Source: a candidate division NPL-UPA2 bacterium (GTDB lineage Bacteria > NPL-UPA2 > JAGMAN01). From it: 12,496 bases of DNA. The notes under the pieces were generated by a model. It was not told the DNA's origin, made no database searches, and worked only from the letters and a program-made list of their open reading frames with translations. Positions 4,673-10,320 of this stretch are shown here, piece by piece. How positions within the stretch are numbered: position 1 is the first letter of the stretch; each line of letters opens with the position of its first letter. The stretch is taken from NCBI GenBank assembly GCA_021129695.1, contig JAJOKU010000006.1, positions 1 through 12,496 on the forward strand. The letters are read 5' to 3'. Made by a program: the position numbers and the translations under genes.

Positions 4673-4681
4673 TTCCGATAC
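4655..4681. repeat. Perfect palindrome over the plsC stop codon
   Basis: GTATCGGAATT (4655-4665), loop TCAAT, AATTCCGATAC (4671-4681). The plsC TAA is at 4670-4672. The 11-base-pair stem is strong, but it is followed by G-rich sequence and not a T-run, so a Rho-independent terminator is not supported. It may protect the mRNA 3' end or be an inserted palindrome that supplied the stop codon. Confidence 0.6.
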
Positions 4682-4718
4682 GGATTGGGGTTGCCTTACG
4701 GCACTGCCTTCGGCTGTG

Positions 4719-4746
4719 TTAAGGGGTGTAATCTGACACCCCTTAA
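4719..4746. terminator. Strong intergenic hairpin, possible terminator
   Basis: TTAAGGGGTGT (4719-4729) pairs perfectly with ACACCCCTTAA (4736-4746) around the loop AATCTG. It has 11 base pairs and a GC-rich core. No U-tract follows, so termination would have to be non-canonical; it may simply be another intergenic palindrome. Confidence 0.35.
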
Positions 4747-4797
4747 GGGGTAACAGGGCGCCGAAGGCGACCGCCATAGGGGGAATCCCCTTGGAAG

Positions 4798-4814
4798 TAT
4801 CGCCAAAGGCGATA
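4798..4814. repeat. Hairpin immediately upstream of ispH start
   Basis: TATCGCC (4798-4804), loop AAA, GGCGATA (4808-4814) ends 9 bases before the ispH ATG. A GGAAG stretch (4793-4797) lies just before it, so the hairpin separates this weak SD-like site from the start codon. Upstream, CGCC-GAA-GGCG (4759-4769) is a related hairpin. In RNA the stem could influence ribosome access. Confidence 0.5.
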
Positions 4815-4823
4815 TCTTAGGGG

Positions 4824-5705
4824 ATGGAGATTGAACTGGCTCGGCATTCTGGATTCTGCTTTGGTGTTAAGCGGGCTATGAAGCTTGCCTTCCAGGCAGC
4901 CAATAAGACACGTCTTACACGTCTTACGAGTGCTGCAAGCGCGAGTGCTGCAAGCGAAGGGAAGGTCTATTCCTTAGGTCCCCTTATTCATAATCCTCAG
5001 GCGGTGGATGAGCTCGGGCGAAGAGGAGTGAAGGTGGTTGAAGATTTAAATCAAGTTGAGGATGGAACCCTCATCATTCGCAGTCACGGAGCTTCGCCCT
5101 CTGTGCTTGCTGAAGTTAGGAGGAGAGGCCTGGAGGTTGTAGATGCTACCTGCCCTCTGGTAAAAAAAGTTCAAGATTTAGCTAAAATTCTGGGGGATGA
5201 AGGTTACCTGGTGGTGATAGTGGGAGAGAGGGACCATTACGAGGTCAAATCCCTCCTCAGCTTCGCTGGCCAGGGAGCAGTTGTTCTGGAGAGCCCTGAT
5301 GAGGCAAAGGAACTGGGAGCGGGAAGGAGAATTGGTGTTCTCTCCCAGACCACCCAGTCAATGGAAAATTTTAAGATGGTGGTAGGAGAATTGGTGGCAG
5401 GAGCAGAGGAGACAAAAATCTTCAATACCATCTGTGAAGCTACCCGCCTGCGACAGCAGTCCACGCTAAATTTAGCTAAGCGGGTGGACCTCATGCTCGT
5501 GGTAGGGGGATATGAGAGTGCCAATACTCGTCGTCTAGCTCAAATCAGTGAGGGAACTGGAGTGGAGACCCATCACATTGAAATAGCCCGGGAGATAGAT
5601 TTGCCCTGGCTCAAGGGCAAAGAGAAGGTGGGGGTCACCGCCGGTGCTTCCACTCCGGACTGGGTAATTGAGGAAGTAATGAGGAAGCTTCATAACAACA
5701 GATAA
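4824..5705 (+). CDS. ispH: 4-hydroxy-3-methylbut-2-enyl diphosphate reductase
   Basis: Last step of the MEP pathway: reduces HMBPP to IPP and DMAPP with an iron-sulfur cluster; cytoplasmic. The three cluster cysteines are Cys12 (GFCFGVKRA), Cys110 (DATCPLV) and Cys204 (TICEATRLRQ). Substrate-binding histidines are His56 (LIHNPQ), His88 (RSHGAS) and His138 (DHYEV). SQTTQS (174-179) and VGVTAGASTPDW (269-280) complete the family pattern. Residues 29-44 (TRLTRLTSAASASAAS) are not part of the family: they are encoded by a mosaic repeat (4908-4956) lying between the first helix and the strand GKVYSLG, and the frame is kept. The start gives the normal MEIELARHSGFCFGV; AGGGG touches the ATG with no spacing, so the initiation signal is unusual. 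rpsA follows after 30 bases, a common pairing. Confidence 0.95.
   Translation: MEIELARHSGFCFGVKRAMKLAFQAANKTRLTRLTSAASASAASEGKVYSLGPLIHNPQAVDELGRRGVKVVEDLNQVEDGTLIIRSHGASPSVLAEVRRRGLEVVDATCPLVKKVQDLAKILGDEGYLVVIVGERDHYEVKSLLSFAGQGAVVLESPDEAKELGAGRRIGVLSQTTQSMENFKMVVGELVAGAEETKIFNTICEATRLRQQSTLNLAKRVDLMLVVGGYESANTRRLAQISEGTGVETHHIEIAREIDLPWLKGKEKVGVTAGASTPDWVIEEVMRKLHNNR
4908..4956 (+). repeat. Mosaic 9/15 repeat, copy 1 (in ispH)
   Basis: Two 9-base units (ACACGTCTT twice), one A, then two 15-base units of the form CGAGTGCTGCAAGCG. It is 49 bases long and sense-oriented, and it encodes residues 29-44 of IspH. Related IspH proteins pass directly from the first helix to GKVY, so the insert adds about 16 residues. 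Confidence 0.9.
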
Positions 5706-5716
5706 AAATAAAATCG

Positions 5717-5724
5717 AAGGAGGT
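5717..5724 (+). promoter_or_regulatory. Strong SD for rpsA
   Basis: AAGGAGGT is a full match to the 16S anti-SD, 11 bases before ATG 5736. The 12-mer AAGGAGGTAACA occurs again at 5772-5783, inside the annotated gene and directly before repeat copy 2. That leaves open whether an ATG at 5862 was once the start. Confidence 0.65.
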
Positions 5725-5735
5725 AACAAGAGATT

Positions 5736-7445
5736 ATGGAAGAAAAAGGGAAAGAGGAGGAGGAAAAGGCTAAGGAGGTAACACATCTTACACATCTTAC
5801 ACGTCTTACGAGTGCTGAAAGCGCGAGTGCTGGAAGCGCGAATACTGGAAGCGAAGGGAGAATGCCCGAGAAGGAAAGCCCTGAGGCGCCTGAAGGGGAG
5901 ATACCTGAGGATATGAGCAAGCTCTATGAGGAGACCTTTAAGCACATCGCTGAAGGAGAGCTGATCAAGGGAAAGATCGTCGGGGTAAGCGACAGGGAAG
6001 CATTGGTTGATGTCGGATTTAAATCCGAAGGAAGCATTCCTTTAAGAGAGTTCGGGAGTTCAGTTGAAGTCGGGGACGAAGTGAGTGTGCTCTTAGAGAA
6101 GGTTGAGGACAAGGAAGGCAGAATAGTTCTCTCCAAGTGGAAGGCGGATCAACTTAAGGCTTGGGAGAAGGTATCGGCTGCCTTTCAGGAAGGCAGAATA
6201 ATTGAGGGAACGATAACTAAGCAAGTTAGGGGTGGATTCGATGTGAATATTGGGGTGGAGGCCTTCCTTCCTGCTTCCCAGGCGACCACTTATTCAACCA
6301 GAAACCTCGGTCAGTTGATTGGACAGAAACTCCCCTTTAAGATCATTAAATTAAATAAGCGCCAGCGCAACGTTGTCGTCTCTCACCGGATAGTTAAGGA
6401 GGAGGAGGAGGAGAGAAACAGAGAAAAGATTCTTTCTGGGTTGGAAAAAGGGCAGTTGCGCAAAGGAAGAGTAAAGAACATCACCGATTTTGGTGCCTTC
6501 ATTGACCTGGGAGGGATAGATGGTCTCCTGCACATAACTGATATGTCCTGGGGACGAGTTTCCCATCCATCCGAGGTCTTGGCCATAGGAGATGAGGTTG
6601 AGGTGGTGGTCCTGGACTTTAAGAAAGAGGAGGGGAAGATTTCCCTTGGCCTTAAGCAGAAGACACCCAATCCTTGGCTGAATGTGGAAGAAAGTTATCC
6701 AGTTGGCTCTAAGGTGAAAGGCAAGGTGGTGAATATTACTTCATACGGGGCCTTTGTTCAGTTAGAGGAGGGAGTGGAGGGTCTGGCCCACATTTCGGAG
6801 ATGTCCTGGACTCGGCGCCTCAATCACCCTTCTGAGGTGGTAGCTATGGGGGACATGGTAGAAGTGGTAGTCTTAAGTATAGACAAGGAGAACCAGAAGA
6901 TCTCCCTGGGGATGAAGCAGGTTGAGCCTAATCCCTGGGAACGGGTGAAGGAGCGCTACCCTGTGGGAACCAGGATAGAAGGTCGCATTCGCAACCTAAC
7001 CGATTATGGGGCATTCATCGAATTGGGGGAGGGAATAGATGGTCTTATCCATGTCTCCGATATGTCCTGGAGCGGGAGAGTTGGCCATCCCTCAGAAATT
7101 GTTAAGAAGGGTGAGAAAGTAGAAGCGGTAGTCTTAGAGGTGGATCCGGAGAATAAGAAGATTTCCCTGGGAATGAAACAGCTCACTTCCGATCCCTGGC
7201 TGACAGTCAGTGAGAAATATAAACCAGAACAGTTGGTTAAGGGCAAAGTCACCAAGCTGACTAACTTCGGGGTCTTCGTTGAACTGGAGAAGGGAATAGA
7301 GGGTTTAGTCCACATCTCTGAGTTATCTAACCTGCCTGTCTCTAAACCGGAAGAGGTAGTTTCCTTGGGACAGGAGGTGACCACTAAGGTAATCAGGGTG
7401 AGCCCGGAGGAGAGGCGGATCCGCTTAAGCCTTAAGGAAGCATAA
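5736..7445 (+). CDS. rpsA: 30S ribosomal protein S1, six S1 domains
   Basis: RNA-binding ribosomal protein that helps mRNA reach the 30S subunit. Six OB-fold S1 domains are visible, approximately at residues 74-135, 153-219, 240-308, 323-395, 410-482 and 499-567. Domains 3-6 carry the typical G-V-NIT-YGAFV-L-GV-GL-HISEMSW and KISLGMKQ motifs; domains 1 and 2 are more divergent, as in other long S1 proteins. At 569 residues it is close to the E. coli form. The first 60 residues are charged and low in complexity, and residues 16-39 come from the largest copy of the mosaic repeat (5781-5853). ATG 5736 has a strong SD, but ATG 5862 (Met43) is a possible older start: an SD-like AAGGAGGT precedes the repeat, and without the repeat it would lie about 10 bases from that ATG. 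The TAA stop shares its last A with the next repeat copy. Confidence 0.95.
   Translation: MEEKGKEEEEKAKEVTHLTHLTRLTSAESASAGSANTGSEGRMPEKESPEAPEGEIPEDMSKLYEETFKHIAEGELIKGKIVGVSDREALVDVGFKSEGSIPLREFGSSVEVGDEVSVLLEKVEDKEGRIVLSKWKADQLKAWEKVSAAFQEGRIIEGTITKQVRGGFDVNIGVEAFLPASQATTYSTRNLGQLIGQKLPFKIIKLNKRQRNVVVSHRIVKEEEEERNREKILSGLEKGQLRKGRVKNITDFGAFIDLGGIDGLLHITDMSWGRVSHPSEVLAIGDEVEVVVLDFKKEEGKISLGLKQKTPNPWLNVEESYPVGSKVKGKVVNITSYGAFVQLEEGVEGLAHISEMSWTRRLNHPSEVVAMGDMVEVVVLSIDKENQKISLGMKQVEPNPWERVKERYPVGTRIEGRIRNLTDYGAFIELGEGIDGLIHVSDMSWSGRVGHPSEIVKKGEKVEAVVLEVDPENKKISLGMKQLTSDPWLTVSEKYKPEQLVKGKVTKLTNFGVFVELEKGIEGLVHISELSNLPVSKPEEVVSLGQEVTTKVIRVSPEERRIRLSLKEA
5781..5853 (+). repeat. Mosaic 9/15 repeat, copy 2 (in rpsA)
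   Basis: The longest copy, 73 bases: three 9-base units (ACACATCTT twice, ACACGTCTT), one A, and three 15-base units (CGAGTGCTGAAAGCG, CGAGTGCTGGAAGCG, CGAATACTGGAAGCG). It encodes residues 16-39 in the same frame as in IspH. The units carry several substitutions, so this copy may be older or may have expanded and diverged. Confidence 0.9.
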
Positions 7446-7484
7446 CACGTCTTACGAGTGCTGGAAGCGCGAGTGCTGGAAGCG
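7445..7484 (+). repeat. Mosaic 9/15 repeat, copy 3 (intergenic)
   Basis: One 9-base unit, one A and two 15-base units (40 bases). It starts on the last base of the rpsA stop codon and ends 7 bases before the stop codon of the convergent kinase gene. It is the only copy outside or away from a gene start. It forms no hairpin, so it is not an obvious terminator for either gene. Confidence 0.9.
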
Positions 7485-7491
7485 AAGGGAT

Positions 7492-8661
7492 TCACTTTCC
7501 AGGTGCGGCCAGGGCGGCTGCCCCCAGGATACCGGCATTTTCAAGCCTTGAGATTTCTATTCTGACATCTCCTGAAGAGACCACACTCTGCATTCCTCTA
7601 TACTTCTTTATCGCTTTTTCCACCAGTCTCTTCCACCTGATTCCCATCTTGCCCGCTATTACTACTATTTCTGGGTCAAAAGCTTGTACGGCATTGCGTA
7701 TCCCCTCGGCAAGAGCATGGGCGGTCTCATCTTCTATCTGAAGGGCTAGTTGATCGCCTTCGTTGGCCGCTATGGCTACATGTCTTGCCTCAATATATTT
7801 GATTTTCTCATCACACGTCTTACGAGTGCTGCAAGCGTCCGATTTAGATTGTATTTGTAGATCTTGTAAAATTAGCTCCTTCTCCACCATGTCTATGATC
7901 TTGGTCTTCTTCCTTTCCTCCAGTATTTTCCTAACCTTCTCTCTGGCTATCTCCCTGACTGCCGTTGCAGAGGCATGGGCCTCCAGGCAATCAGGATGGC
8001 CGCAACTGCACCTTCGGCTTCTTCTTCCTGGCGGCAAGGCTATGGTTATGTGTCCCAACTCAGCTCCTCTGAGCTTGTGTCCGGTAATCTTAGTTGAGGT
8101 TCCTGTCTTGGGATTGGTATGAATTACTCCACCACCCACACCCGTACCCAGAGTATAAATTACCAGATTCCGAGTAGCATCTCCCCAGCCACCGAAGATT
8201 CTTTCCCCATCGGCGGCCGCATTGGCATCGTTATCAACAAAGGTGGGCAGGCCCAATTCTTTCTCAATAATCTTCCCTACTGCCAGGCCTTTGAATCCTG
8301 GCAGGTTATGAGCCTCACCAATGGCTTCATTATAACCATCCCAGGAAGGACAGCCAATTCCAATTCCTTTAAATTGAGACTTCCGCTTCCAGCACTCGCG
8401 CTTCCAGCACTCGTAAGACGTGTAAGACGTGTTGACTTTGCTCTCCCCAATCAACTCCTTTATGGCACTTGTCAACCTCTTCATAAACTGAGCCGGGCCG
8501 GAGCTTGCATCTGTTTCCATCTCTTTCTGATGGATTACTTTACCGGAAGCAGTAACAATTCCCAGTTTGACCGTTGTTGCTCCGATGTCTATGCCAACGC
8601 TTGCAGCACTCGCGCTTCCAGCGCTCGCAAGACGTGTAAGACGTGTAGAATGCTTAGCCAT
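7492..8661 (-). CDS. ROK-family sugar kinase (glucokinase-like)
   Basis: ATP-dependent phosphorylation of a hexose, most likely glucose, in the cytoplasm. Motifs from the ATG at 8661: the ATP phosphate loop VGIDIGATTVKLG (residues 22-34), DNDANAA (143-149) with the catalytic Asp145, LGTGVGGG (171-178), and the ROK zinc site ELGH (His204) with CSCGHPDCLE (Cys218, Cys220, Cys225). At 389 residues it is longer than the usual 300-320. About 41 residues come from three mosaic repeats: residues 6-21, 77-93 and 276-283. A longer frame from 8685 is rejected because that ATG overlaps the -10 box; GAGGG lies 7 bases before ATG 8661. The gene converges with rpsA and is divergent from rph. No repressor helix-turn-helix is present, so it is a kinase and not a ROK regulator. 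The exact sugar is not determined. Confidence 0.9.
   Translation of the reverse strand: MAKHSTRLTRLASAGSASAASVGIDIGATTVKLGIVTASGKVIHQKEMETDASSGPAQFMKRLTSAIKELIGESKVNTSYTSYECWKRECWKRKSQFKGIGIGCPSWDGYNEAIGEAHNLPGFKGLAVGKIIEKELGLPTFVDNDANAAADGERIFGGWGDATRNLVIYTLGTGVGGGVIHTNPKTGTSTKITGHKLRGAELGHITIALPPGRRSRRCSCGHPDCLEAHASATAVREIAREKVRKILEERKKTKIIDMVEKELILQDLQIQSKSDACSTRKTCDEKIKYIEARHVAIAANEGDQLALQIEDETAHALAEGIRNAVQAFDPEIVVIAGKMGIRWKRLVEKAIKKYRGMQSVVSSGDVRIEISRLENAGILGAAALAAPGK
7813..7837 (+). repeat. Mosaic 9/15 repeat, copy 4 (antisense in the ROK kinase)
   Basis: One 9-base unit and one 16-base segment (A plus CGAGTGCTGCAAGCG), 25 bases, on the plus strand while the host gene is on the minus strand. 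It is therefore translated from its complement and contributes residues 276-283, ACSTRKTC. It lies between LILQDLQIQSK and the helix leading to ARHVAIAAN, a likely surface segment. It is the only antisense-translated copy. Confidence 0.85.
8384..8432 (-). repeat. Mosaic 9/15 repeat, copy 5 (middle of the ROK kinase)
   Basis: Two 9-base units, one A and two 15-base units (49 bases) in the same orientation as the kinase gene. It is read in a different frame from the ispH copy and gives [16 protein letters not shown] near residues 78-93, between the first long helix (IKELIGE) and the strand FKGIGIGCPS. In other ROK proteins this junction is a short loop. Confidence 0.88.
8598..8646 (-). repeat. 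Mosaic 9/15 repeat, copy 6 (N-terminus of the ROK kinase)
   Basis: Two 9-base units, one C in place of the usual A, then two 15-base units (49 bases) with a few substitutions. It encodes residues 6-21, [16 protein letters not shown], between the start MAKHS and the nucleotide-binding strand VGIDIG. It therefore extends the N-terminus directly before the phosphate loop. Confidence 0.88.
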
Positions 8662-8683
8662 AAGATAACCCTCACTTACGTCC

Positions 8684-8713
8684 ATTTTACTACCATCAGC
8701 TAGAAGCTGTCAA
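8684..8713 (-). promoter_or_regulatory. Promoter of the ROK kinase gene
   Basis: On the minus strand TTGACA (8713-8708) is followed after 18 bases by TAAAAT (8689-8684). Transcription would begin near 8677, about 16 bases before ATG 8661, leaving room for the GAGGG SD. It is divergent from the rph promoter; the two -35 boxes are about 20 bases apart, so the promoters could interfere or share regulation. Confidence 0.7.
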
Positions 8714-8733
8714 TTCATTTTGCCATTGTGCTA

Positions 8734-8762
8734 TTGACACCTCCTCAAAGAGAAGGTATAAT
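8734..8762 (+). promoter_or_regulatory. Perfect consensus sigma-70 promoter of rph-rdgB
   Basis: TTGACA (8734-8739), a 17-base spacer, and TATAAT (8757-8762) match all 12 consensus positions at ideal spacing. The expected start is near 8769-8770, coinciding with an in-frame ATG at 8770, so a leaderless transcript is possible. This is the strongest promoter match in the window. Confidence 0.85.
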
Positions 8763-8788
8763 TGCCCTGATGGTAAATAAGGAGAAGA

Positions 8789-8813
8789 ACACGTCTTGCG
8801 AGTGCTGGAAGCG
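8789..8813 (+). repeat. Mosaic 9/15 repeat, copy 7 (at the rph start)
   Basis: One 9-base unit and one 16-base segment with G instead of A at the junction (GCGAGTGCTGGAAGCG), 25 bases. It lies between AAGGAG (8779-8784) and ATG 8815. If translation began at ATG 8770 it would be read as TSCECWKR. Its internal GGA is 5 bases before ATG 8815 and might act as a weak SD. Confidence 0.85.
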
Positions 8814-8814
8814 G

Positions 8815-9543
8815 ATGAGACAGGACGGGAGGATGCCTGATAAGATGCGCCCGGTGAAGATTAGCCGGGGGTATCTGCGCTATGCAGAAGGGTCTTCCCT
8901 AATAGAAGTAGGCAATACAAAGGTTGTCTGCAGTGCCACTGTTCAGGAGAAGGTGCCTTCTTTTCTGAAAAATACTGGTGAAGGCTGGGTTACTGCTGAG
9001 TACGGGATGCTTCCCCGCTCTTCAAAAGAACGGATTTTTCGGGAGCGAACAAGAATAAGCGAGCGCACTTACGAGATTCAAAGATTGATCGGAAGGTCCC
9101 TGAGGGCGGTTACCAATTTAAAATCCTTGGGAGAGAGGACGGTCTGGATTGACTGCGATGTTATCCAGGCAGATGGAGGGACCCGAACCGCCGCCATTAC
9201 CGGAGCCTTCATCGCTCTGGTGGAGGCGGCTGATTATTTAAAGAGGGAGAAGAAAATAGAGAGATGGCCAATTGAGGATTTGGTAGCCGCAGTGAGTGTG
9301 GGTATGGTGCAAGGAAGACCCCTTCTTGACCTTTCTTATGAGGAAGATTCCCGCGCCTCTGTAGATATGAATATTGTCATGACCGGGGAAGGAAAATTTG
9401 TTGAAGTTCAGGGGAGCGGGGAGGGGACTTCCTTTTCTAAGGAGGAGATGAATAAACTCCTTACCTTAGGGAAAAAAGGGATAAAAGAATTGCTCAAATT
9501 ACAGAAGGAGGGTTTGGGAAAGTTGGGAGAAGCTTTGTGGTAG
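8815..9543 (+). CDS. rph: Ribonuclease PH
   Basis: Phosphate-dependent 3'-5' exoribonuclease that trims tRNA 3' ends, acting as a hexameric ring in the cytoplasm. From ATG 8815 the protein opens with the family's MRQDGR--D--RPV and has 242 residues, the normal length. Motifs: [20 protein letters not shown] (residues 23-42), the phosphate-binding core [19 protein letters not shown] (113-131) with Arg124, and [17 protein letters not shown] (162-178). Two starts are possible. ATG 8815 fits the family, but its SD (AAGGAG, 8779-8784) is now 30 bases away because a mosaic repeat lies between. ATG 8770 is in frame, would add 15 residues, and coincides with the expected transcription start. The 3' end overlaps rdgB by 7 bases, pointing to a two-gene operon with coupled translation. 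Confidence 0.94.
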
Positions 9544-10139
9544 AAGTGGTCATAGCAAGTAGAAATTATAATAAAGTAAGGGAAATTAAAGAAATATTGA
9601 CACGTCTTACGAGTGCTGGAAGCGGGGGGCTAAATATAAAGCTTCTCTCTCTTAAGAGCTTTCCCGGCCTCCCAAAGATAGAAGAAGATGGAAATAGTTT
9701 TAGGGAGAATGCCCTTAAGAAAGCACAGGAAATCGCAAAGTGGACAGGTAAGCTGACCCTGGCTGAAGATTCGGGAATAGAAGTTGACTATTTGAAAGGC
9801 GCCCCGGGGATTTTCTCGGCCAGGTTTGCTCCCACGGACAGGAAAAGGAACCTGAAACTGTTAAAATTGTTGGAAGGTGTGCCAGCTTCTAAGAGAAAAG
9901 CAAGGTTTCGCTCTTGCGTAGCCCTGGTTAATCCCCAAGGCCAGGCAAAGGTAGTAGAGGGGAGCTGTCGGGGAAGAATCAGTTTTAAGCCCAGGGGCAG
10001 TTATGGATTTGGCTACGACTCCATATTTATAGTTCCCAAATATAATAAGACTTTCGGGGAATTAGGTTATCCTCTTAAGAATAAGATCAGTCACCGGGCA
10101 AGAGCGATCCAAAAAATGGGGAAAATCTTGCGAGGGTGA
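9537..10139 (+). CDS. rdgB: XTP/dITP pyrophosphatase (RdgB/HAM1 family)
   Basis: Hydrolyses XTP, dITP and ITP to monophosphates and pyrophosphate, keeping damaged purines out of DNA and RNA; cytoplasmic. The order is [14 protein letters not shown] (residues 4-17), [10 protein letters not shown] (54-63), [24 protein letters not shown] (75-98) with the catalytic Asp78, GYGFGYD-like [10 protein letters not shown] (155-164), and [11 protein letters not shown] (181-191). The usual DDSG is EDSG here. At 200 residues it is normal in length, although residues 22-29, TRLTSAGS, come from a mosaic repeat lying between the first helix and the next strand. The GTG start at 9537 has GGAG 7 bases upstream and overlaps the last codons of rph. 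The rph-rdgB pair is common in bacteria and supports the call. Confidence 0.94.
9600..9624 (+). repeat. Mosaic 9/15 repeat, copy 8 (in rdgB)
   Basis: One 9-base unit and one 16-base segment (25 bases), sense-oriented, encoding residues 22-29 of RdgB in the same frame as in ispH and rpsA. It follows the helix VREIKEIL and precedes the strand IKLLSL, where relatives have a short loop. Confidence 0.88.
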
Positions 10140-10270: not shown

Positions 10271-10306
10271 CCCCACTGCTTCGCTTTGCGAAGCAAAGCG
10301 GTGGGG
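10271..10306. repeat. Long palindrome, copy 2 of a shared family
   Basis: A 36-base nearly perfect palindrome from CCCCAC to GTGGGG, with one mismatch and two G-T pairs over 18 positions. It matches 406-440 except for one added G. Two copies in different intergenic regions show that it is a dispersed repeat. Confidence 0.75.
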
Positions 10307-10320
10307 AAAGATTGCCCTGA

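Follow-up and report, generated by a model that had tools for sequence, protein, structure and literature searches.

A probable mobile micro-element with minimal forms of 21 and 24 nt, found mostly inside protein genes of candidate division NPL-UPA2 bacteria

Introduction

Elements of the IS200/IS605 type insert next to a short fixed target word without target duplication and have hairpin ends. The SDR elements of Nostoc punctiforme, said to have been described by Elhai et al. in 2008, are reportedly 21–27 nt long, with mobility deduced by comparison, nested copies and, in some families, a common predicted secondary structure. SDR elements are cited in portions of PMC4390886 and PMC3116915, the former placing a precise insertion site of SDR5 inside HIP1. 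Sections of PMC2229807 describe Rickettsia palindromic elements (RPE; 105–146 bp, with long stem-loops), which lie in frame in conserved protein genes and are tolerated there, and the enterobacterial RU-1, RU-2 and RU-3, small repeats of 103–168 bp fused in frame to genes, with target duplications of 3–26 bp for RU-2; PMC2759123 also deals with enterobacterial small mobile sequences. REP and REPIN sequences with their RAYT transposases are presented in PMC3116915 as very short, present in many copies and presumably moved in trans, REPs being palindromic and extragenic. Here, a 12,496-nt stretch of DNA from a candidate division NPL-UPA2 bacterium (GenBank GCA_021129695.1, contig JAJOKU010000006.1; hereafter the window) was analyzed, in which a 24-nt element recurs in eight arrays.

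The arrays are most probably copies of a non-autonomous mobile micro-element with minimal forms of 21 and 24 nt. Its insertion is precise, at a target motif and without duplication, with both species-specific and shared sites and with changing copy number at single sites; its movement appears to occur in trans.

Genomes and element search

The window is contig 9 of a 910-kb genome (G000, 167 contigs, 70% complete), which was compared with two genomes of its genus (G001, 81% complete; G002, 90% complete), two of its order (G003, G004) and four of its phylum (G005–G008). Names such as C75 or C44 denote contigs of the named genome, and P numbers denote protein relatives. The element search gave 67 rows, which were typed by hand and reduced to 55 distinct sites by merging 12 rows common to genomes. 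Nine of the 55 labels were altered by hand (four from intergenic to a sense frame, four from antisense to intergenic, one from intergenic to unknown), and seven rows were relabelled from S to K. Left-end matches that did not fit the search form, and so are outside the 55, lie in G000 (C110, C2:9768, C42, and one in C58 with an N run inside), G001 (C72, C93, two in C5, C19, C92:5436) and G002 (C119, C120). A 15-base search pattern proved too loose, its listed matches including many unrelated organisms, and was used for no result.

Insertion sites and target motif

The earlier note on this DNA had proposed that the element spreads into protein genes and is retained where harmless, and this is supported by empty sites: at 12 of 29 sites, repeat-free orthologues lack precisely 21 or 24 nt, with the two flanks meeting and no base lost or duplicated. 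Clean empty sites were obtained for two of the eight window sites (7813 and 9600) and 10 of 21 further sites (G000 C75, C44, C131, C11b, C11c, C12a, C12b and C118a; G001 C115; G002 C61), and no target-site duplication was seen at any of the 12. Three more of the 29 (G000 C5, G001 C128a, G002 C24) show a net gap of 21 nt with ambiguous borders; alignments were not all clean at sites where several relatives were compared.

Over the 55 distinct sites, the base at −1 is A in 54, +1 is A in 41, +2 is A in 47 and +4 is G in 48, giving the motif A|AANG (P of about 1e-16 for G at +4, with a background of 33% set by the author). Longer elements were found with a pattern that includes the A at −1 (one mismatch allowed), so that base is partly built in; it is not built in for the 41 core-defined sites, where the corresponding counts are 40, 30, 34 and 36. 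The motif is present in most of the clean empty sites, with exceptions such as C131, where +4 is A, and C118a, where it is C in G002, and thus predates insertion as the target and is not part of the element. The left junction, A|CACG, itself reads A|NANG, a hint that one recognition word could serve both the element end and the target.

Arrays in the window and host genes

All eight arrays claimed by the earlier note (4908-4956, 5781-5853, 7445-7484, 7813-7837, 8384-8432, 8598-8646, 8789-8813 and 9600-9624) were recovered. The 18-base core CACGTCTTNCGAGTGCTG, with one mismatch allowed, has eight matches in the window, a number equalled by none of 200 dinucleotide-preserving shuffles (mean 0.00); six arrays are on the forward strand and two (8384-8432, 8598-8646) on the reverse. 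Open reading frame (ORF) positions agree that seven of them lie in or at the start of ispH, rpsA, a ROK kinase gene (three), rph and rdgB, and in ispH, rpsA, ROK and rdgB the frame stays open across the copies, as had been said; one correction is that the ROK copy at 7813-7837 is antisense to its gene. The arrays and their host genes, with array composition given as numbers of 9-mers and 15-mers, are as follows.

4824..5705, forward: ispH host gene; match to solved IspH 3dnf, E 7.9e-73
4909..4956, forward: apparently nested double element of 48 nt (2x9+2x15) in ispH, residues 29-44 TRLTRLTSAASASAAS
5736..7445, forward: rpsA (S1) host gene; an ORF, presumably rpsA
5782..5853, forward: triple array of 72 nt (3x9+3x15) in rpsA, close to the ribosomal protein S1 N-terminus
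7446..7484, forward: array of 39 nt (1x9+2x15), intergenic, with the rpsA stop codon on one side and the ROK 3' end on the other
7492..8685, reverse: ROK kinase host gene; homologues carry Pfam PF00480
7814..7837, forward: single 24-nt element, antisense in the ROK kinase gene; clean 24-nt empty site in G002
8384..8431, reverse: double element of 48 nt in the ROK gene; the frame gives ...ECWKRECWKR
8598..8645, reverse: double element of 48 nt at the N-terminus of ROK
8728..9543, forward: rph host gene; ORF as listed, with a likely later start; DNA match in G003
8790..8813, forward: single 24-nt element just 5' of the RNase PH start MRQDGR (8815)
9537..10139, forward: rdgB host gene; solved match 3tqu, E 1.6e-35
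9601..9624, forward: single 24-nt element in rdgB, residues TRLTSAGS; clean 24-nt empty site in G002

The gene taken to be rpsA was named from its S1-like repeats and that taken to be rph from its likeness to RNase PH; other gene names given without a supporting search are likewise putative. The earlier statement that all catalytic motifs are present was viewed solely through alignments of IspH, RdgB and ROK with relatives. The rpsA insert is missing from the G002 orthologue, the N-terminal surroundings of which have diverged, so that this is not a clean empty site.

The copy beside rph is either a 5' leader or, if an in-frame ATG at 8770 is used, an N-terminal extension. It sits between an AAGGAG word resembling a ribosome-binding site (8779-8784) and the likely rph start ATG (8815), and rph in G003 begins directly ATG-CGT-TCC-GAT. 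No rph orthologue was found at the ROK/rdgB position of G002, where on C77 (L194, 4353-4373) a ROK match is followed almost directly by rdgB. Elsewhere in the window, a 41-nt intergenic repeat (406-446 and 10271-10311, 93% identical) holds the inverted repeat GCTTCGCTTTGCGAAGC.

Element family and longer relatives

The 24-nt element consists of CACGTCTTA followed by CGAGTGCTGGAAGCG, that is, CACGTCTTACGAGTGCTGSAAGCG, and is a variant of the commoner 21-nt element CACGTAAGAGTGCTGCAAGCG, the form that most copies beyond the window take. The two-unit element described earlier is replaced by a single element of 24 (or 21) nt, a member of a family of 21–105 nt with common ends. A 19-base core of the 24-nt form (at most two mismatches) occurs 11 times in G000 (8 in the window), three times in G002 and once in G001, and the only match in 57 other genomes searched, with two mismatches, is probably due to chance. 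The wider core GAGTGCNGNAAGCG has 30 exact occurrences in G000, 17 in G001 and 8 in G002, with one bare match among the remaining six phylum genomes. In 121 kb of G000, comprising contigs picked because the element is present, 12-mers with at least six places belong only to the element family or to the longer-interior words AAGGCAGTGCCGTA and CAGCCGAAGGCA, and 117 12-mers have at least four places, versus 0 in one Markov control. Two copies lie inside runs of GAAAAAC/GAAAAGC-like heptamers (G000 C118, L201, 1600-1720; G000 C12, L199, 4360-4430).

Exact element patterns had no match in IMG/VR, and Rfam gave none in the window at gathering scores. A literature search over titles and abstract openings found no description of this element family, and no word starting with repeat, transpos, insertion or mobile stands in the main text of PMC6305446, the NPL-UPA2 genome paper.

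Elements of 33–105 nt that end in [GA]CAAGCG also start with the left end, CACG[TA]AAGAGTGCT. Because the search forms preset how long the 21-nt form and the 9/15 arrays are, divisibility by three carries information for the longer elements alone, for which the search imposed no such length: all 19 rows (14 distinct sites) are divisible by three, including all three intergenic copies. Words such as CAGTGCCGTAAGG make up their interiors; the module CAGTGCCGTANGGCA is present 17 times in G000, 14 times in G001 and 0 times in G002, while the interior words GTCCACAGGAC and GCCCTTTAGGGC are found in G002 and also in C8 of G001. The intergenic region before ispH (window 4679-4818) holds a string of the short words GCCTTACGGC, GCCTTCGGC and CGCCGAAGGCG, the same words that make up interiors of longer elements, and the module CAGTGCCGTAAGGCA lies at 4692-4706 on the reverse strand.

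At single sites, the interior varies between species and both ends are kept. The C119 site has 21 nt in G000, 72 nt in G001 and 21 nt in G002; the C128a site has 21 nt in G001 and 45 nt in G002, another has 60 nt in G000 (C12:3186) versus 57 nt in G002 (C61:14451), and further G000/G001 pairs at one site measure 84 and 45 nt, and 75 and 105 nt. Judged from these sequences, the 21-mer may be either a minimal element entered by modules at GTGCT|GCAAGCG or a remnant after their exit. The second possibility leads to the best-surviving alternative, that each 21–24-nt copy is a scar, left by a larger transposon or by a longer element whose interior has been lost. It draws on the two ends that the 33–105-nt elements have in common with the minimal forms and on the C119 site; the interiors, however, could equally be later insertions into the 21-mer, and none of the both-ended elements read has a gene between its ends. 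This origin is considered unlikely, though it deserves some weight.

The absence of an internal inverted repeat, as earlier claimed, holds for the window copies; the longer relatives hold short hairpin-like words, yet on average they fold no better than shuffles, and no function is therefore claimed for hairpins. A palindrome, ACACGAAGGAGTGCTCCCC...GGGGAGCACTCCTTCGTGT, lies beside a regulator-like coding stretch at G001:C5:851-901 (L364); its left half resembles the element left end, and a shorter version is present in G002:C120.

Reading frames and host proteins

Altogether, 44 of the 55 sites were assigned to genes, partly by hand. The hand-corrected tally comprises 25 copies read as TRKSAAS/TRLTSAAS, 8 as HVRVLQA, 6 as ECCKR (counting as sense ECC the copy before rph, possibly a leader), 5 antisense, 10 intergenic and 1 unknown. 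Two of three element variants are open in all sense frames. Of the variant that bears a TAA, 23 sense copies are in the TRK (18) or HVR (5) frame and none is in the third frame, in which the TAA is a stop (P of about 0.0004, taking the codon phases of A|AANG as background), against 6 of 16 copies of the non-TAA variants in the third frame. Frames were assigned from open frames, so that a TAA copy in the stop frame could not be called sense; because of this bias, the nine unassigned TAA copies were looked at separately, and none lies in a frame open for at least 60 codons on both sides (the largest being 55 and 54 codons). Sense copies outnumber antisense copies 39 to 5 (P = 0.0004, with an A|AANG strand background of 528 to 292), or 39 to 9 when four doubtful sites are counted as antisense (P = 0.015), and TRK exceeds HVR beyond background (P = 0.0001). 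One of the four sites relabelled from antisense to intergenic, L238, looks antisense in a long frame, and L360, labelled unknown, looks to be in the TRK frame.

Since TAA copies were not found breaking genes in the stop frame, translation is likely: in-gene copies would be translated and then selected as small soluble inserts, an account that the sequences fit but do not prove. A different explanation takes the byp elements of yeast mitochondria as its model and has the insert escape translation, through translational bypass or self-removal. Short inserts in conserved genes and the hairpin-like words of the longer relatives would suit it; the case for translation is also weakened in that the evidence from length and frame is in part built in, and in that the three longer intergenic copies have lengths in threes too, so that length may be a property of the element. 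A skipped insert, however, would not need the constraint seen in the 23 TAA-bearing sense copies, and this explanation is regarded as improbable.

The host proteins give a further view of tolerance. The structure model of IspH has a mean pLDDT of 91, falling to about 58–66 around the insert (residues 29-44), the first part of which is modelled as extending helix 13-36 and the second as a low-confidence loop before strand 48-51. The refuting case set out in the earlier note, orthologues of distant phyla with identical residues at the same places, is not what is seen for IspH and RdgB, the solved proteins lacking the inserted residues: IspH 3dnf has a 15-residue gap at the insert, and RdgB 3tqu (the best match) has a gap of 8 residues, with gaps of 3 and 2 in the second match, 6wwd. 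Among protein relatives of IspH, P0125 (candidate division NPL-UPA2 bacterium) has 65% identity and the more distant P0133 (Nitrospirae bacterium) 64%. The ROK model was poor (mean pLDDT 58) and was left uninterpreted. By eye, an antisense copy at G001:C128 1558 (L246) appears to be part of a signal-peptide-like N-terminus, LLSLAALLRVFSF.

Apparent nesting and copy number

Along the window, the numbers of 9-mers and 15-mers per array are (2,2), (3,3), (1,2), (1,1), (2,2), (2,2), (1,1) and (1,1). These counts do not bear out a mosaic of separate 9- and 15-base units and fit a single 24-nt element that has inserted into itself repeatedly. Within the 24-nt form lies CTTA|CGAG, with an A and then a G at +4, so a second and third copy could enter, and the 9-9-15-15 arrays are best read as a copy that received another. 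That the arrays arose by nesting is inferred from two pairs of orthologues and from the way in which inner and outer copies have mutated. The ispH site has a single copy in G002 and a double one in the window, and the C12 site is single in G000 and double in G001, where the inner unit has the GGA variant and the outer has GCA, like the single copy. In the rpsA triple array, mutations are most numerous in the outermost 15-mer, which would be so if it belonged to the oldest copy, and the inner unit at ROK 8598 carries a TTG variant, as does the single copy at 8789. No array with more 9-mers than 15-mers was seen.

Protein relatives show the same variation. IspH has two insertions in the window, one in P0122, one in P0123 and none in P0124; ROK has three in the window, two in P0002, one in P0003 and none in P0004-P0008. 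By place, ROK 8384 is (1x9+2x15) in G002 and lacks an insertion in P0003, ROK 8598 is (1,2) in G002 and (2,2) in P0003 and is without one in P0004-P0008, and the 7813 copy is missing from the other aligned ROK homologues.

Such variation in 9-mer and 15-mer numbers between orthologues, together with the existence of (1,2) arrays, could also come from tandem repeats (variable-number tandem repeats) that arise by slippage and expand within genes. Single copies of 21 or 24 nt at empty sites, however, had no repeat to slip on, near-identical copies stand at unrelated sites, both unit numbers rise together in the two orthologue pairs, and the added 24-nt block in one pair has a variant base foreign to the old copy. 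Slippage may account for the gain or loss of single units, while the empty sites speak against it as the origin, for which it is regarded as improbable.

An uptake or chi-like signal word enriched via point mutation, for which the short, numerous in-gene copies might speak, is refuted by their being insertions with precise empty sites. An assembly or adapter artefact is conceivable since the assemblies are fragmented and since part of the element word resembles adapter sequence; as judged from assemblies and protein records, it is argued against by separate genomes that have the insertions at the same places but diverge normally and differ in copy number, and by insertions in protein records from other sources. 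Both are given next to no credence.

Proposed mechanism and enzyme search

For the mobile micro-element, the following course is proposed. A copy would be placed exactly after an A, usually before AANG, without target duplication or loss; the 24-nt form, through its CTTA|CGAG, would take a second or third copy, giving 9-9-15-15 and 9-9-9-15-15-15. In-gene copies would be translated as a flexible insert of 7–8 residues and kept where the protein tolerates it. The agent would be a trans-acting, sequence-specific strand-transfer enzyme that joins the element ends to A|AANG. A bolder version, put forward tentatively and with more doubt than belief, is that the 21-nt form is the complete transposable unit of a new class of sequence-specific mobile DNA, its ends CACGNAAGAGTGCT...GCAAGCG being recognised at A|AANG by a putative enzyme. 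Such a unit would be built for genes to read through (with length in threes and, in two of three variants, no stop in any sense frame) and would offer a landing place to further copies of itself and to species-specific interior modules.

Several observations weigh against a mobile element of this kind. Five of the 29 sites (ispH, two ROK sites, C62, C119) are filled in the relatives compared, and nine could not be judged: seven are diverged or have no orthologue (rpsA, window 7445 and 8789, C58, C118b, and C88 and C92 of G001), C11a is a 66-nt composite and C1 has 22 nt at a gene end. The flanks gtga|aacgg are common to 4 of the 55 sites, which may be non-independent insertions. The (1,2) arrays at 7445, at C7 and in ROK of G002 require loss of one 9-mer or another path, and the 21-nt form was not seen nested in itself. 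Folding was no better than that of shuffles, either for the minimal forms or for 12 longer forms (mean z −0.55, range −1.95 to 1.37). Among the three genus genomes, no reverse transcriptase (PF00078) was found, a Y1 transposase (PF01797) was found once in G001 and not in G000 or G002, and an IS110-type transposase was present in G000 only, no search having been aimed at other recombinase families; thus no transposase or reverse-transcriptase candidate is common to the three, and no insertion intermediate was found. With genomes 70, 81 and 90% complete, the absence of an enzyme is weak evidence. The IS110-type gene, at G000:C113:460-717 (L374), is the sole one in five genomes searched.

If the mobile reading is right, the element is among the smallest DNA elements known to move, entering essential protein genes at a clear target motif, and two questions become testable: by what means some 20 nt of DNA can be mobilised at all, and with what ease core enzymes take up ready-made peptide inserts, the element being in this respect a natural experiment in protein tolerance of insertions. 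Among the three species, the same site can already be compared in filled, in empty and in apparently nested form.

Comparison with known systems

Miniature inverted-repeat transposable elements (MITEs) were considered and rejected, as the ends CACG... and ...AAGCG are not inverted repeats and no duplication is present at the 12 clean empty sites. Insertion at A|AANG without duplication is shared with non-autonomous elements of the IS200/IS605 type, but the NPL-UPA2 element is far shorter; no hairpin ends were seen on folding, and Y1 was found in one of three incomplete genomes. Like REP and REPIN sequences, it is very short, has many copies and presumably moves in trans; unlike them, it has 44 of 55 sites in genes and is not palindromic. 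A Y1-type transposase was found once, in G001, and not in the incomplete genomes G000 and G002. With RU-1, RU-2 and RU-3 it has in common a small repeat read in frame with genes, although its minimal forms are shorter and it is without target duplication. In-frame insertion into protein genes is also the point of likeness to RPE, from which it differs in its length of 21–105 nt, its non-palindromic minimal forms without a notable fold, its apparent self-nesting and its short target motif.

The Nostoc SDR elements come closest by description, in that the minimal forms of 21 and 24 nt are within their reported size range, recent mobility is seen in empty sites, copies appear to lie within copies, and the insertion site is precise. 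The NPL-UPA2 element differs from them in belonging to another phylum, in having its copies mostly inside protein genes, in its loose A|AANG target as opposed to an octamer, and in having no supported secondary structure. On this comparison, the element appears to behave like the SDR micro-elements of Nostoc, but inside genes as RPE do, and it is filed under neither.

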